Below, piece after piece: positions 27,329-33,378 of a stretch of 64,000 bases of DNA (positions within the stretch are counted from its first letter, which is position 1; every line of letters starts with the position of its first letter). The notes below the pieces were generated by a model. That model worked only from the letters and a program-made list of their open reading frames with translations. It made no database searches and had not been told where the DNA came from. Source of the DNA: Pyrinomonadaceae bacterium. GTDB lineage: Bacteria; Acidobacteriota; Blastocatellia; Pyrinomonadales; Pyrinomonadaceae. Where the stretch lies: positions 124,001-188,000 of the forward strand of contig DASUNM010000002.1 in assembly GCA_036277115.1 (NCBI GenBank), in the 5' to 3' direction. Made by a program: the position numbers and the translations under genes.

Positions 27329-29259
27329 TTACGACTTTTTGGACTCTTCTCGGCTTTCTTCCAGGATTCTGAAGAGGGTCGCGGTCAGTTTCTTGGCGGC
27401 CTCGGATGTGCGCAAGAACGCATCGACGCCGGCGCGCCACGCTTCCTTTTCCACATCATCGTCGGAAAGCATGATGATTGGCAGGGTGCGACGATGGACC
27501 ATGCTGCGGACGCGCAGGACCAGCTCAAGCCCGCTCACTTCGGGCAAGTTGTGATTGACGATCAGCACATCATAGGGCACCTTCGTCTTGAGAATCTCCC
27601 ACGCTCTAAGTCCACCGGTACACAATTGCACCCCAAACCCGCTGCTCACCAGGAGCTCTTCAAATTGACGCCCAATCAGCTTGTGACCCTCAACGTGAAG
27701 GATTGAAACCTGATTTGGAACCGGCGTCGCCGGAGTTTTCTTTTCGCTTTGCTTCGGCTGCGAAAACAAATGCCGTCGCCGCTTTCGCACCGCCGTACGG
27801 TGCCCGATCAGATCTTTGTGCCGGTTGTTGAGCAGCGACACGAGACTCTGGTGATGCTTGAAGCCCAGCAATTGCGAAGCCTTTGTCACCGAACCAGACG
27901 CATCGCGAAGCGAGCGTTCGATCAGGTTTCTTTCGATTTTCTTGATTTCCCGGCGCAGGGAAAATCCCTCCCAAGAATCGGGCTTCGGCATAAAACCCCC
28001 GCCGGGTTTCTCCACCAGCAATGCGGCAATCACTTTTCGCGCGCAGGAAATCAGGCGCTTGTGCGTCGCCGGATCCTGAGAATGCTCGAGCAGTTCTACG
28101 GCCGACTGGTAGATCTCCACGAGCTGCCTGACACCCGTTTGACTGCCGAGTTCCTCGACAATCGTCAGGTGCGCGCGACCTGAACCTTCGCGGTCGCCAA
28201 CTGTTTCCGCGACAACAATCGCTCGTTGTAGCAGTAATGCAGCGCGCGCCTCATTGCCCGTGCGGGCCGCGATAATTCCCTGGGTCGTAAGCGCCTCAGC
28301 GAGGACCGCCTGTTGTCCGCCCTTCTCGAGAACTCTGACCGCGGCTTTGATCGTCCGCTCGGCGGCTTTAAGGTTACCTTCGGCGAGAAGCGTGCGCGCG
28401 CGCGTCTCATCAACCTGCGCCGCCGTACCAACATCTTTCAGTTGTAAGAAGAGATCGCGAGCACGATCCAAATGGTAGTGCGCGTCCTGATAACGCCCGA
28501 TGGTGAAGTAAAGAAAGCCGAGGTTGTTTTCAACGCGAGCGAGGTAACGAAAATTGCCGGCCTTCTCATGATAAAAACTGGCCGCAGCGTTTTCGATTAG
28601 TGCCTTATCAAGAAATTCGCTTCGACTTTCTGCTACAGCAAGTCTCCTAAATAAGAGTGCGAACTCCATGTGGAAAGAGCCTTTGAGAGCGTTATTTTCA
28701 CTCTGCTCCACCAAAGGGGCTGCGGTGTTATAGAGTCGCAAGGCTTCGTGCAGTCGGGATGACCACACTTCCACAATGCCAGCGCGAATGAGAAGAATTG
28801 CCTGTAGCTCAGGGTTTTCAACTGGCAGAATTTCGATTGCAGTTGCCAACTGAGCGCGCGCCTCATCGTATGAGCCTTCCCTCCAGTAACAAAGTGACAA
28901 ATCACCTCGTCCTTCGGCCACTCGACGAACCTCCCCCAGGCTTTCAAAGATCTCGATGGCTTTAGTGAGGAAATTCTTTGCGACCTCTTGGCTCCTTCAG
29001 TCTGATTAGCCGCACCAAACCAACCGGCTAGCGCACCAACCCGAAGCAGAACGTCGCCTTTTGTTAAGTCGTCCAGATTATCGAGCTTGGGAGCTTTGTC
29101 GCGCGCAGGCCAATAAAGACGGAGGGCTTCATACGCTGCTTCGTATTCGCCCACTTTCTCGAAGTGCTTGGCCAACTGGCAGGCAAGCTCAGCTCGTTCG
29201 TTAACTGGCAGGTCGCGACTTTCGTTTTGGAATTCGGTTAGTTGCGACGTTAAGTTCAT
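27329..29259 (-). pseudogene. TPR / Fis-HTH / pseudo-receiver regulator, interrupted by one frameshift
   Basis: Two frames join into one ~640-residue protein. The first runs from ATG 29257-29259 (MNLTSQLTEFQNESRDLPV...) to about 29000; the second continues QEVAKNFLTKAIEIFESLGE from there to the stop at 27329. A single missing base near 28988-29000 (after GAAGGAGC on the minus strand) separates them. Order: TPR repeats (~1-400), a Fis-type helix (ERNLIERSLRDASGSVTKAS and QLLGFKHHQSLVSLL), a basic linker, then a CheY-like domain (SILHVEGHKLIGRQFEELL). The receiver lacks the phospho-acceptor Asp (IVNHNLPE, codon 27554-27556) and the conserved Lys (AFLRTSE), so it is probably not phosphorylated. 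Either a true pseudogene or an assembly/sequencing error. It is divergent to a small exported peptide gene. Confidence 0.75.
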
Positions 29260-29367
29260 GTGAGGTTGGCCTTTCTACATCAGTGATAAAATCATTGCGC
29301 TGCGAGCATGTGTCCGACGGTTTCATGGATGAAAGTCGGTGAATCGGCTGAAACACGCTCCTTCTAG

Positions 29368-29379
29368 GTTTCTAGAAAC
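29368..29379. promoter_or_regulatory. Perfect 12-bp palindrome between TPR regulator and peptide gene
   Basis: GTTTCTAGAAAC is self-complementary and lies 30 bp upstream of the peptide start codon in the 150-bp divergent spacer. Candidate operator for the neighbouring HTH regulator. Confidence 0.35.
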
Positions 29380-29409
29380 TCGCAACACCCAATCACCAAG
29401 GAGAAAAAC

Positions 29410-29682
29410 GTGACGAAACTAAAAAGACTAGCTGTCTCTTTAACCTTGATGTGCGTACTCGCCACTGCCGGTTTCGCGGACTGTGAGCCCCCTATGCCGG
29501 GACAAATACCATCAGGGCAGTGTGTTTGCGTCCCTGGCGAAACAAGTGGTCCGCCGTGCGCCGCTCAGGCTATTAATAATGGGCCGGTGGTTCCCGGTCA
29601 AACATCAACCCCACCGGTCGTGCCTGTGGCTAGTGTAACCGACCTCGCCGAAACGGTGATGTGGGGGCTGTCGTTGTTCTAA
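29410..29682 (+). CDS. Small exported Cys/Pro-rich peptide (90 residues)
   Basis: The start is GTG 29410 with AAGGAG (29398-29403) upstream. Signal peptide 1-23 (KLKRLAVSLTLMCVLATAGFA), predicted mature start DCEPPMPG. The mature part has four Cys (25, 38, 40, 50), PG[Q/E]-type repeats (PGQIPSG, PGETSGPP, PGQTSTPP) and ends VTDLAETVMWGLSLF, an amphipathic hydrophobic tail. No known family. It is encoded divergently from a TPR-HTH regulator, an arrangement like peptide-pheromone/TPR-receptor pairs (RRNPP type) in Firmicutes; that comparison is an inference from architecture only. Alternatively a surface-associated structural peptide. Confidence 0.6.
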   Translation: MTKLKRLAVSLTLMCVLATAGFADCEPPMPGQIPSGQCVCVPGETSGPPCAAQAINNGPVVPGQTSTPPVVPVASVTDLAETVMWGLSLF

Positions 29683-29725: not shown

Positions 29726-30343
29726 GTTCGCATTCTCAAACCATCTCGTTTGCCACTGATACTCTCACTGGCAACACAGTTATTGTGTGTCCAGTTCACG
29801 CGATCAACTCAATCATCCGAACGGGATCAGTCGGGTCTAACTCCGTGCGATTTCGAGAGTGCTGGCGATCAGCGTAGGACATTGCAAAACGGTCTTCAGG
29901 GCGATGGCAAGATAATCCGAGTTTGGACTTTCGCGCAACTGAGTTCTTTCAACTTTTCTCGCCAAAGAGTTGATGGGTAGGATATTAGCGTTTGCTGCAA
30001 CCGGCATCGCAAGAGAGACGGCAGGGAGGCGCGAGCTGATGCTTACTTCCGCATTTGCATCGAACTTTTCCCAACGGGCGGCATTCGCGGGCCTCAGCCC
30101 ACGATGCCGCAGGGTCCTACTTTGCGTGGCCTTTGCGTCTTTGCGCCTTTGCGTGAACAGACTATTTGTCACAAGAGCCATTTCCCGCAAAGACGCAAAG
30201 TCGCAAAGGACCGCAAAGAAGAAATAGGACACCTCAACGGTTGCGAATACAGCACTTGACCGGGCTTCAGATTCCGCGTACAAAGCTTTGACAACCGACG
30301 ATTTGCGGATTTGAACCCCGACGCGTCCGGGTTGATCCGACTA
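29726..30343. other. Gene-free region before the histidine kinase
   Basis: Long frames here cross the octad repeat and have no family resemblance or ribosome binding site. Apart from the inverted octad arrays at 30121-30218, nothing could be supported. The kinase promoter should lie in 30219-30340. Confidence 0.4.
30121..30218. repeat. Inverted octad tandem arrays (TTTGCGTC / CGCAAAGA)
   Basis: The left arm has TTTGCG at 30121, 30132, 30140 and 30148 (8-bp spacing in the last three). The right arm has CGCAAAG at 30186, 30194, 30202 and 30212. The arms are reverse complements around a ~30-nt centre. It is the same design as the heptad elements elsewhere in the window. Confidence 0.75.
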
Positions 30344-31927
30344 ATGGCCGTAGCAATCGATGTAACTCACCGCGAGACCTCGCAACCGGAAAGCGCAACC
30401 ACGCTAGGCACCATCGTCGATTTAGTTCGGCGCATCACGCACGCGGACACCACGTCCGTCATAAGCTTCTCGCAAAACGACAACACGATTACCTGGGAAG
30501 CTGCCGCCGGCTTCATCACCCCTGCGGCTGAGCGACCGATTACGCAGCAACTCAACAACGTTCTGGCGGATCGCGTCCTCGCCGCCGACTCGGTCGTAAT
30601 TGTTCAGGGGATCGGCCGGCGCGACGGTTATCCGGCTGATGAGTTTCCCATACACGCGCTCGAAGGCATCTGCGATTTGGCGATCATACCGCTTAGATCG
30701 CGCGGCGTGCAGCTCGGCGCCCTCATCGCCGGTTATCGTTTGTCGCATGAGTTCACGGTTGAGGAGAAGGAGTCGCTACGCGGTCTGGCGGACATGGCCG
30801 GCCTGGCGCTGGACAACGCGCGGCTGGTAGAAACGCTCGCGACTGCGGAGAAAATCTGGGAGCAAACCTTCGAAGCGATTGGCGAAGGCATCCTCGCCTA
30901 CGATGAAAACGGGCGCATCCTGCGCTGCAATGCGCGCGCAGCTGAGATGCTCGACCTGAAAAACGAAGAGGTAACGGACCTCACTTTCGAAGAGGCTTTC
31001 GCGCGCATGTTTGGCGGGCCGGCAGCCGCGTACCACCTGGCCGATTCTCGCGACTTGTCTTCCGGATTCGAAGTCCAAACCGAAACAGGACGGCGCTACC
31101 TCACTTCGATTGCTTCGATACGTCAGCCGTCAGAAAACACTATCAAGGTCGCCACCTGGAAAGACGTGACTCAACTGTCCGAGGTGCAGGAGCAGCTTTC
31201 GCGTTCCCGTCGTTTGGGCAGCGTTGGCCAATTAGCCGCGGGCGTCGCGCACGAAATCAACAACCCGCTGGCCGCGATCTCGGCCTGTGCCGAAGCCGTG
31301 ATTCGTGATGTGCGCAAGAGCGACGACACGCAAAAGCTCGCCAGCGAACATCAATGGAACTACTACCTTGAAGAGATTGTGCGCCAGTCGCAGCGGTGTA
31401 AAGAGATTACGCGCGGGCTTTTGGATTTGACGCAGCAGCGTCAGGCGAAGCGCTCGATGACCGATCTAAACGGCGTAGCCAGAGATTGCCTCAAAGTCGC
31501 GGTGCACCGACCTGAGTCGGCACGAATCGAATTCAAAGTCGCACTTGATGAAGGCATCGGCCAAATCGCGACCGACCCGGCCCTGGTGTGTCAGATCCTG
31601 GATAACCTTCTGAGCAACGCGGCCGACGCGGTAGGTGAAAACGACGGACGTGTCACCGTGAGGACCGCTCGTGAAACTGACCGTGCCCTGATCGAAGTGG
31701 CTGACAACGGGCCGGGCATTCCCGCTGATCTACTTCCCAAGATTTTTGATCCATTTGTCAGCACCAAGCGGGCGGGCAAGGGGTACGGGCTGGGCTTAGC
31801 GATTTGCGCGGCGCTGGCGGAAGCACTCGGCGCGTCTTTGACCGTGGAGTCGAAGGAAGGGGAGGGAAGCCGTTTCCGGCTATGGATTCCTCGTCGCGCC
31901 GCGGACGTTGAGAATGTATCCGTCTAG
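30344..31927 (+). CDS. Soluble sensor histidine kinase (GAF-PAS-HisKA-HATPase)
   Basis: About 527 residues from ATG 30344; TTG 30311 is an alternative start. No transmembrane segment. A GAF domain (about 25-165; TIVDLVRRITHADTTSV...GALIAGYRLSHEFTVEEKE), a PAS domain (IWEQTFEAIGEGILAYDENG...), then HisKA with the phospho-His in GVAHEINNPLAAIS, and HATPase_c with the N box NLLSNAADAV, G1 EVADNGPGIP and G2 GKGYGLGLAI. This is NtrB/AtoS-like kinase architecture. The partner regulator gene follows 65 nt downstream. It should sense a cytoplasmic signal through GAF/PAS; the ligand is unknown. Confidence 0.88.
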   Translation: MAVAIDVTHRETSQPESATTLGTIVDLVRRITHADTTSVISFSQNDNTITWEAAAGFITPAAERPITQQLNNVLADRVLAADSVVIVQGIGRRDGYPADEFPIHALEGICDLAIIPLRSRGVQLGALIAGYRLSHEFTVEEKESLRGLADMAGLALDNARLVETLATAEKIWEQTFEAIGEGILAYDENGRILRCNARAAEMLDLKNEEVTDLTFEEAFARMFGGPAAAYHLADSRDLSSGFEVQTETGRRYLTSIASIRQPSENTIKVATWKDVTQLSEVQEQLSRSRRLGSVGQLAAGVAHEINNPLAAISACAEAVIRDVRKSDDTQKLASEHQWNYYLEEIVRQSQRCKEITRGLLDLTQQRQAKRSMTDLNGVARDCLKVAVHRPESARIEFKVALDEGIGQIATDPALVCQILDNLLSNAADAVGENDGRVTVRTARETDRALIEVADNGPGIPADLLPKIFDPFVSTKRAGKGYGLGLAICAALAEALGASLTVESKEGEGSRFRLWIPRRAADVENVSV

Positions 31928-31950
31928 CCGGGCGGACTGCCGTCGGTGTG

Positions 31951-31968
31951 CGCGGGACAAGTCCCGCG
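31951..31968. repeat. Palindromic hairpin between kinase and regulator genes
   Basis: CGCGGGAC-aa-GTCCCGCG, a perfect 8-bp stem in the 65-nt spacer. REP-like or an mRNA processing/stability element; no T-run. Confidence 0.5.
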
Positions 31969-31992
31969 TCTCAACGGAAGTTCTTTAAGTAA

Positions 31993-33378
31993 ATGAGTCG
32001 CAAGATCAACATCCTGGTCGTTGACGACGACAATCTGCTGCGGAAGCTGGTTACGGGTCAGCTTTCACAGGCGGGTTTTGGCGCGACGCCCGCCAGCAGC
32101 GGCGCCGAAGCGCTGGCCGCATTGCGCGACAGTGATTTCGATGTGGTGTTGCTGGACGTGATGATGCCGGATCTTTCCGGCCTCGAGGCCTTGAAAGAAA
32201 TCCGCCAGTTAGACGATCCGCCTGAGGTCATAATGCTGACGGCGGACACTTCCTTGCAGACGGGACTCGAAGCGATGCGTCACGGCGCGTACGATTACCT
32301 CACAAAACCGGCAACGCTCGATGAGATGGAAGCCGTCATTCGCAAGGCCGACGAGAAGCGGCGGCTGGTAAAGCAGAACGCATCACTTCGTTCAGTTGTC
32401 AGGCCGGCGACCCACGCGGACGATGCGGTGCCAATCATCCATGAAAATGCGTCGATGGCGTCAGTCCTGGCGCAGGCCGAGAATGCCGCGCGCACGGATT
32501 CGACGATGCTTTTGACGGGCGAATCGGGAACCGGGAAAGACGTCCTGGCGCGATTCATTCACTCAAAAAGCATGCGCGCAAACATGCCCATGATTACCGT
32601 CAATTGCGGCGCGTTGCCGGAAACTCTTTTCGAGTCAGAGTTCTTTGGCCACGAACGCGGAGCGTTTACCGGCGCGACTTCGCTGCGTCGAGGATTAGTC
32701 GAGGCGGCGGATGGTTCGACGTTGTTCCTCGATGAAATCGGTGACCTGGCGTTGGGGATGCAGGTAAAGTTTCTGCACTTTCTTGAGCAGGGAAGGTTCC
32801 GCCGCGTGGGATCCACGCGCGATCAAACGTCGGACGTGCGCGTTATTGCTGCGACGAACCGGAACCTGACGGTAGCGGTGGAACGTAAGGAGTTTCGCGC
32901 CGACCTCTTCTATCGTCTGAATGTCGTAGCGCTTCACGTACCGCCGCTCCGCGAACGCCGCGAGGACATTGCAAAATTGATCGAACACTTTCTGGGCGTC
33001 TATCGTGAGCGCTTCAACCGGCCGAAACTGAAGTTGACGGACGATGCGATCCACCGTTTGCTCGAATACCCCTGGCCGGGAAACGTGCGCGAGTTAAGAA
33101 ACTATATGGAACGCGCGGCCGCGATCTCTCCCACGGATACAATCGATGCGGACCAAATTCCGGAGCTCTCACCAGACAACGAAGTTGGCGAGACCGTGAC
33201 GCCCGAGCCCGTTCCTCGCCGGCTTGAAGACCTCGAGCGCGAACACATCCTGCATGTGCTGCGACAGAGTGAAGGCAACCGCGAGCGCGCGGCGACGATT
33301 CTCGGCATCTCGGCGCGGACGCTTTACCGAAAGCTTCGGGAGTACGAGCACGAGCGCGACATCGATTCTCAGGATTAG
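31993..33378 (+). CDS. NtrC-family sigma-54-dependent response regulator
   Basis: 461 residues. Receiver 6-118 with Asp55 (VVLLDVMMPD), Thr in MLTAD and Lys105 (LTKP). AAA+ domain 150-380 with Walker A TGESGTGKD (175-183), the sigma-54-contacting loop GAFTGA (223-228), FLDEIGDL and RLNVVALHVPPLRERREDI. C-terminal Fis-type HTH (NRERAATILGISARTLYRKLREY). All key residues are present, so it should be phosphorylated by the upstream kinase and activate sigma-54 promoters by ATP hydrolysis. A candidate sigma-54 site and an enhancer-like dyad lie between it and the downstream surface-protein genes. Confidence 0.92.
   Translation: MSRKINILVVDDDNLLRKLVTGQLSQAGFGATPASSGAEALAALRDSDFDVVLLDVMMPDLSGLEALKEIRQLDDPPEVIMLTADTSLQTGLEAMRHGAYDYLTKPATLDEMEAVIRKADEKRRLVKQNASLRSVVRPATHADDAVPIIHENASMASVLAQAENAARTDSTMLLTGESGTGKDVLARFIHSKSMRANMPMITVNCGALPETLFESEFFGHERGAFTGATSLRRGLVEAADGSTLFLDEIGDLALGMQVKFLHFLEQGRFRRVGSTRDQTSDVRVIAATNRNLTVAVERKEFRADLFYRLNVVALHVPPLRERREDIAKLIEHFLGVYRERFNRPKLKLTDDAIHRLLEYPWPGNVRELRNYMERAAAISPTDTIDADQIPELSPDNEVGETVTPEPVPRRLEDLEREHILHVLRQSEGNRERAATILGISARTLYRKLREYEHERDIDSQD

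Follow-up and report, generated by a model that had tools for sequence, protein, structure and literature searches.

Introduction

Do two divergent genes in a bacterium of the family Pyrinomonadaceae (phylum Acidobacteriota) encode a peptide signal and its receptor? The genes lie in the window, by which we mean the whole 64,000-nucleotide stretch of DNA that was analysed. An original prediction, made from the sequence of the window, proposed that a TPR regulator and a small exported peptide form a signalling pair there. TPR-receptor peptide signalling has been described as a speciality of the Firmicutes, mainly of the Bacilli (PMC9765709, PMC10075063). In RRNPP systems the propeptide is 10-100 aa long and secreted by Sec, the receptor measures 250-500 aa and carries peptide-binding TPRs, and the two genes are direct neighbours (PMC10075063). 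RRNPPA receptors have an N-terminal helix-turn-helix (HTH) or a three-helix bundle followed by C-terminal TPRs, and are found in Firmicutes, nearly all of them Bacilli (PMC9765709). Some propeptides of Rap-Phr systems, e.g. Phr3T and Phr105, contain tandem pheromones (PMC11343458). The literature searched contained no description of peptide signalling in Acidobacteriota or in Pyrinomonas, although the coverage was incomplete and an earlier description is possible.

In this work we describe the locus, its relatives across the phylum and the selection acting on the peptide. We conclude that the pair is probably a two-gene peptide-signalling cassette of the Pyrinomonadaceae, of which the window copy is probably decaying.

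Results and discussion

The window locus

A gene encoding a TPR–Fis-HTH–receiver protein (27329–29259, minus strand) faces the peptide gene (29410–29682, plus strand) across a divergent intergenic region of 150 bp (29260..29409). The original prediction had read the former as one protein of ~640 residues. It is not intact in the window, where a one-base deletion splits it over two ORFs of 208 and 530 aa. The 208-aa ORF is the 5' part of the gene (28633..29259, minus strand), and its first ~88 codons are in the true frame, as judged from the ORF list, frame comparison and alignment to an intact paralogue. The 530-aa ORF is the 3' part (27329..28921, minus strand) and contains TPRs, a Fis-type HTH and a degenerate receiver (TPR_12, E 4.9e-12; Response_reg, E 3.3e-11). 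The deletion maps to 28990..28998, near 28994 (minus strand), as a single gap relative to the intact paralogue, named C23 below.

The N-terminal TPRs were expected from the original prediction and are strong in Pfam. The Fis-type HTH it proposed (HTH_8) scores above the Pfam cut-off in homologues but is weak in the window copy itself (27863..27943, minus strand, residues 327-353, E 0.0096). That description lacked the C-terminal receiver (REC) domain (PF00072, 27380..27703, minus strand, Pfam E 3e-11). The phospho-acceptor position of this domain is occupied by Asn (IVNHNLP versus IVDNNLP in the C23 paralogue), whereas the Asp is retained in nearly all other REC-bearing homologues. Unless the missing base is an artefact of sequencing, the frameshift and this Asn make the window copy of the regulator look degenerate, and the window pair may be non-functional.

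The DNA identity between the window regulator and the C23 paralogue is uneven. The N-terminal TPRs are ~50–70% identical and the receivers ~50–78%, but identity reaches 86–99% at window positions 27750-28540, which correspond to the C-terminal TPRs and the HTH. This suggests a gene conversion restricted to the DNA-binding half, with divergence of both the N-terminal TPRs and the repeats of the peptide.

On the other side of the intergenic region, the proposed 90-residue product with a signal peptide was recovered as an ORF with a GTG start, preceded by the Shine-Dalgarno sequence AAGGAG (29398..29403, plus strand), opening with a Sec-type leader, MTKLKRLAVSLTLMCVLATAGFA, and ending in ...VTDLAETVMWGLSLF. 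The sequence and the family alignment predict that the signal peptide spans 29410..29478 (plus strand), with cleavage between AGFA and DCEPP. The putative mature part contains an internal repeat, VPGETS/VPGQTS (p 0.02 versus shuffles), that had previously escaped notice. By comparison with the family unit, G-[DE]-[IMT]-x-[TS]-[PG], three candidate units can be placed on the plus strand: GQIPSG (29500..29517), which is weak in the window copy, GETSGPPC (29536..29559) and GQTSTPP (29596..29616). The latter two carry the VPGETS/VPGQTS repeat and are also seen in the family alignment. The precursor then ends in a conserved hydrophobic C-terminus, SVTDLAETVMWGLSLF (29632..29679, plus strand), whose LSLF end is common to the family.

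The surroundings of the peptide gene show two other features. Downstream, the gap that follows it contains an inverted repeat, 'tttgcgtctttgcgcctttgcg / cgcaaagacgcaaagtcgcaaagg' (30110-30215). Further on (30311-33378), ORFs for a GAF/PAS histidine kinase and for a sigma-54 type response regulator are recognisable from the sequence. They are probably unrelated to the pair, since no such neighbour recurs at other loci.

Related pairs in the same genome

A search of the window's own genome yielded one further peptide (C23, 52% identity) and several regulators. The C23 peptide, which ends in DITDLTEAVMWALSLF, is divergent from the intact 650-aa TPR–Fis–receiver paralogue. On C27 lies a third pair, in which a TPR–Fis regulator of 454 aa accompanies a 63-aa peptide with predicted export. 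No recognisable divergent peptide was found at three of the six regulator homologues of this genome (L005, L006 and L007). The last of these (C27:938710) encodes a 682-aa protein with the same TPR sensor region and an N-terminus that looks, from its sequence, like a winged helix of the CadC/OmpR type.

Distribution and pairing

The regulator is present in 29 of 60 related genomes, all from the window's own family, and a phylum-wide sample of 396 genomes likewise gave matches within that family only. Scanning named genomes with the regulator alignment retrieved 75 loci, all of them from Blastocatellia, Pyrinomonadaceae or Acidobacteria MAGs, apart from that of a cultured strain, Pyrinomonas methylaliphatogenes K22. 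In K22 the regulator lies at ~187214-189544 and the peptide gene at ~186838-187068 of NZ_CBXV010000007.1. Single genomes contain up to ~15 homologue matches.

An ORF of ~50–95 aa with a signal peptide, called by a simple hydrophobicity rule, is divergent from the regulator at 67 of 72 loci, usually at a distance of 80-180 bp; two of the five remaining loci had less than 250 bp of upstream sequence. When strict rules were applied, a divergent peptide was assigned to 62 of 70 regulators; of the 334 other genes at these loci, which served as controls, only 3 had one. The pairing of regulator and peptide is far beyond chance. The peptide ORFs of the family measure 50-108 aa (median 78), and an n/h/c-region followed by an AxA site is visible in the sequences and their alignment, consistent with export.

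The reverse search gave the same picture. A single peptide used as query in the contig scan found no matches, because the peptide diverges too fast, and the peptide family has no match in Pfam or NCBIfam. A peptide profile searched against 60 genomes produced 80 matches at E up to 1e-5, of which 78 divergently adjoin a TPR regulator. Peptide homologues lacking such a neighbour, named in the original prediction as counter-evidence, thus came to only two, one of them an unrelated Lys/Pro-rich protein.

Weaker profile matches (E above 1e-5) were considered as orphan members and rejected, as they mostly represent another secreted family, KNDNRPPKENPKV...KPPPS...KP. This separate Lys/Pro/Asn-rich family of ~60-80 aa (L186, L188, L190-L193 and L198-L200) occurs in the same bacterial family and has no TPR regulators.

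Two variations of the locus were also noted. A repeat-peptide gene with GDIASPG...GDISSPG (L182, G020:C9, 2609-2818, plus strand) has no adjoining TPR regulator, and a receiver-domain frame lies ~1.9 kb from it. At L046, L066, L072, L078, L079 and L187, one TPR regulator is preceded by two or three peptide genes in tandem, whose repeats differ slightly, an arrangement that resembles tandemly duplicated pheromone genes.

A constant TPR sensor with variable outputs

The regulators, which range from 450 to 780 aa, have their N-terminal TPR region in common and vary in their outputs. Fis-only proteins (~450-530 aa), Fis proteins with a receiver (650 aa for the intact window type) and AAA+–Fis proteins (~760 aa) all occur with a peptide. 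In the AAA+ sub-class (PF00158, E 1e-58 in L035), the loop, where readable, is mostly GSFTDA or GSFKDA instead of GAFTGA. Regulators of the Fis and Fis-REC types, that of the window among them, lack this loop altogether. A sigma-54 promoter of the -24/-12 type was sought in the intergenic regions and found not to be convincing, in the AAA+ group as elsewhere. Given the altered GAFTGA and the lack of a clear sigma-54 promoter, the AAA+ members probably do not use sigma-54.

AlphaFold2 predicts a confident TPR superhelix (mean pLDDT 88). When this model was compared with the PDB by Foldseek, peptide-bound TPR domains (LGN complexes) ranked first, and the first bacterial TPR match was Rap of phage Phi3T with its pheromone. 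The predicted fold is thus compatible with peptide binding, although the match to Rap and LGN lends this only a little weight because TPR folds bind many partners.

Selection on the hexapeptide repeats

Over 90 precursors, the consensus of the first hexamer of the putative mature part is G-[DE]-[IM]-x-[TS]-[PG], and the unit is usually repeated, with one to four copies per precursor. An internal repeat was detected at p up to 0.05 versus shuffles in 54 of 95 mature peptides, the other 41 being above p 0.05. In 78 precursors a second unit could be picked by the family profile alone. It shares 2.74 of 5 residues with the first copy of its own precursor and 1.10 of 5 after second copies were swapped between precursors (z 16, 0/5000 permutations), and this likeness is also significant inside each clade tested. 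Exact repeats include GETQSP/GETQSP, GIIWTG/GIIWTG and GIIHTE/GIIHTE, as well as GEMGTG, present three times in K22.

The repeats cannot be explained by recent duplication alone, since about half of the degenerate codons differ between copies. The 34 precursors with exact repeats offer 240 degenerate positions, and the codons of the copies differ at 117 of them, where independence would give 160. The same residues are thus written with different codons, from which it follows that the copies are old in the DNA and have been kept identical in the protein by selection. This pattern speaks for translation of the ORFs and for selection both on the unit itself and on the likeness of the copies.

These data bear directly on which segment would be the signal. 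The original prediction favoured the C-terminal tail (WGLSLF) and asked whether the C-terminus is conserved. It is: a hydrophobic end of the [LV]LSLF type is common to the family alignment, and the prediction thus withstood both of the tests it had named. The variable signal is nevertheless probably not this tail, which hardly distinguishes paralogues although each of them should need a signal of its own. The mature N-terminal hexapeptide occurs in repeated copies, which are alike inside each precursor and different from one paralogue to another, and we think that the repeat is the likelier signal. The C-terminus could be a common element for processing, membrane interaction or chaperoning. 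A Mantel comparison of the peptide segments with TPR distance did not separate a ligand segment, as all segments correlate.

That regulator and peptide distances correlate is also what joint inheritance predicts. The peptide might then be a small surface or adhesive protein of low complexity, its pairing with the regulator reflecting no more than vertical inheritance of linked genes; its Gly/Pro/Ser-rich composition would fit, and repeats can expand neutrally. We regard this explanation as very improbable. The synonymous differences (117/240) show that the repeats are not recent expansions, the pair persists across unrelated neighbourhoods, and the lengths stay within 50-108 aa.

The shared intergenic region and the gene context

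A palindrome, TTGCAAG-N3–5-CTTGCAA with up to 2 mismatches, occurs in 13 of 60 intergenic regions, versus 0.25 in shuffles. It mostly lies ~23 bp before the regulator start, where members of the family carry the N4 form. The genus of the window has TGATAAAATCATTGC-like elements at this place instead. The window copy, TGATAAAATCATTGC (29284..29298), lies ~23 bp before the regulator start, is conserved across the genus by eye and may serve as an operator. In several regions a TATNAT-like -10 can be seen by eye after the palindrome, in the direction of the peptide gene, so that the site would overlap the -35 of this gene. This arrangement points to a regulator that controls both genes through the shared region.

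The cassette is found in unrelated neighbourhoods and is still paired. No third gene recurs with it, and except between syntenic orthologues no exporter, protease or immunity gene accompanies it. Oligopeptide-binding proteins (PF00496) are encoded in all four genomes tested; therefore, an import route exists in principle.

Operator-like sites in a shared promoter would equally be expected if the peptide were exported to act on the envelope or as an antimicrobial, with the hydrophobic C-terminus as its active part, and the TPR protein were the local regulator of this effector and sensed something else. The hydrophobic or amphipathic C-terminus is conserved throughout, and regulators with REC or AAA+ modules could take other inputs. 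We nevertheless consider an effector unlikely, if worth keeping in mind. Neither an immunity gene nor a transporter comes with the pair, the strongest paralogue-specific selection falls on a short Gly/Pro-rich repeat and not on a membrane-active helix, and the TPR sensor stays constant while the regulator outputs change.

A model for the cassette

The signalling cassette is argued for by several sequence features, namely the pairing, the signal peptide, the repeats and the selection on them, the modular output and the operator-like palindrome. Of the signalling module as originally proposed, the joint conservation of the pairing, the predicted leader and the TPR sensor is upheld, but neither an intact regulator in the window nor the C-terminal tail as variable signal. 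From these features we infer export, cleavage, release, re-import, TPR binding and the direction of control, as follows. The small gene would encode a precursor exported by Sec and cut by signal peptidase before the first unit. This precursor would comprise one to four hexapeptide copies, G-[DE]-[IM]-x-[TS]-[PG], followed by the common hydrophobic C-terminal segment. Fragments of hexapeptide size would be released and would return to the cytoplasm, the likely route being a generic oligopeptide ABC importer, where the N-terminal TPR superhelix of their own regulator may bind them. Binding would switch the Fis-type DNA-binding output, coupled in some members to a receiver or an AAA+ module, and the regulator would act on the shared intergenic region to control the peptide gene and itself jointly. 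In a two-membrane cell the peptide could signal between cells, or it could be self-sensed and timed by export.

Signalling in a Gram-negative organism needs a step across the outer membrane, which counts against this model, as do the three regulator homologues of the window genome at which no peptide was recognised and the precursors in which no repeat was detected. The lack of an obvious outer-membrane route, together with a self-contained two-gene layout without a dedicated importer, would suit a feedback sensor: inside the cell, the precursor would be bound by the TPR protein while nascent or before export, for instance at the C-terminus common to all paralogues, and the TPR protein would report on Sec or envelope status. 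This sensor is distinctly unlikely in our view: it leaves unexplained why repeats are duplicated, alike within a precursor and different between paralogues, and why the family has expanded to as many as ~15 homologue matches in a genome. Each of the three alternatives considered here explains the repeat evidence less well than the signalling cassette does.

Relation to known systems

The cassette shares several traits with RRNPP systems (Rap-Phr, PlcR-PapR, NprR-NprX, AimR-AimP). The gene of a TPR receptor adjoins that of a small propeptide, here predicted to be exported, there are many paralogous pairs per genome, and the predicted TPR superhelix resembles peptide-bound Rap in Foldseek. The size of the propeptide (90 aa in the window) and the adjacency of the two genes (67/72 and 78/80, divergent in all) also agree. 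In contrast to RRNPPA receptors, the Pyrinomonadaceae regulators have N-terminal TPRs and a C-terminal Fis-type HTH, with an optional REC or AAA+ module. The genes are divergent, whereas the RRNPP peptide is encoded downstream; the intact window-type regulator (650 aa) and the AAA+ types (~760 aa) exceed the 250-500 aa of RRNPP receptors; and the host phylum is Acidobacteriota instead of Firmicutes. Given all these differences, the cassette is not a member of RRNPP, although it most likely works in a similar way.

As in Phr3T and Phr105, several near-identical short units are found in one propeptide with predicted export, but here they start at the mature N-terminus, ahead of a long hydrophobic C-terminus that is conserved, and they differ in sequence and phylum. 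One regulator sub-class combines an AAA+ module with a Fis HTH, as do sigma-54 enhancer-binding proteins of the NtrC/NifA class. It differs from these by its TPR sensor and by GSFTDA mostly replacing GAFTGA; most members of the family have no AAA+ module, and the use of sigma-54 is doubtful. Unlike phosphorylatable response regulators, the window protein has a receiver with Asn in place of the phospho-acceptor Asp. Control of a transcription factor by a short peptide in a two-membrane bacterium, as proposed here, has a precedent in PatS/HetR of cyanobacteria. HetR is not known to have a TPR superhelix, however, nor PatS to be a repeated Sec-exported precursor.

With regard to origin, we see an about even chance that these TPR receptors evolved independently of RRNPP, when a TPR sensor was fused to outputs with a Fis HTH of the kind seen in enhancer-binding proteins, and that the Pyrinomonadaceae thus possess a large, diversified set of pheromones released from multi-copy hexapeptide precursors.

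Conclusions

Acidobacteriota are an abundant soil phylum, and the cassette makes peptide signalling in it directly testable. There are ~100 homologous pairs, each with a predicted short ligand, plus a predicted operator, and Pyrinomonas methylaliphatogenes K22 is a cultured type strain with a single pair. If the model is true, the cassette would represent a second, separate origin of TPR-peptide control or quorum sensing, in a two-membrane phylum, and would show in what way signalling by short peptides might operate where an outer membrane surrounds the cell.
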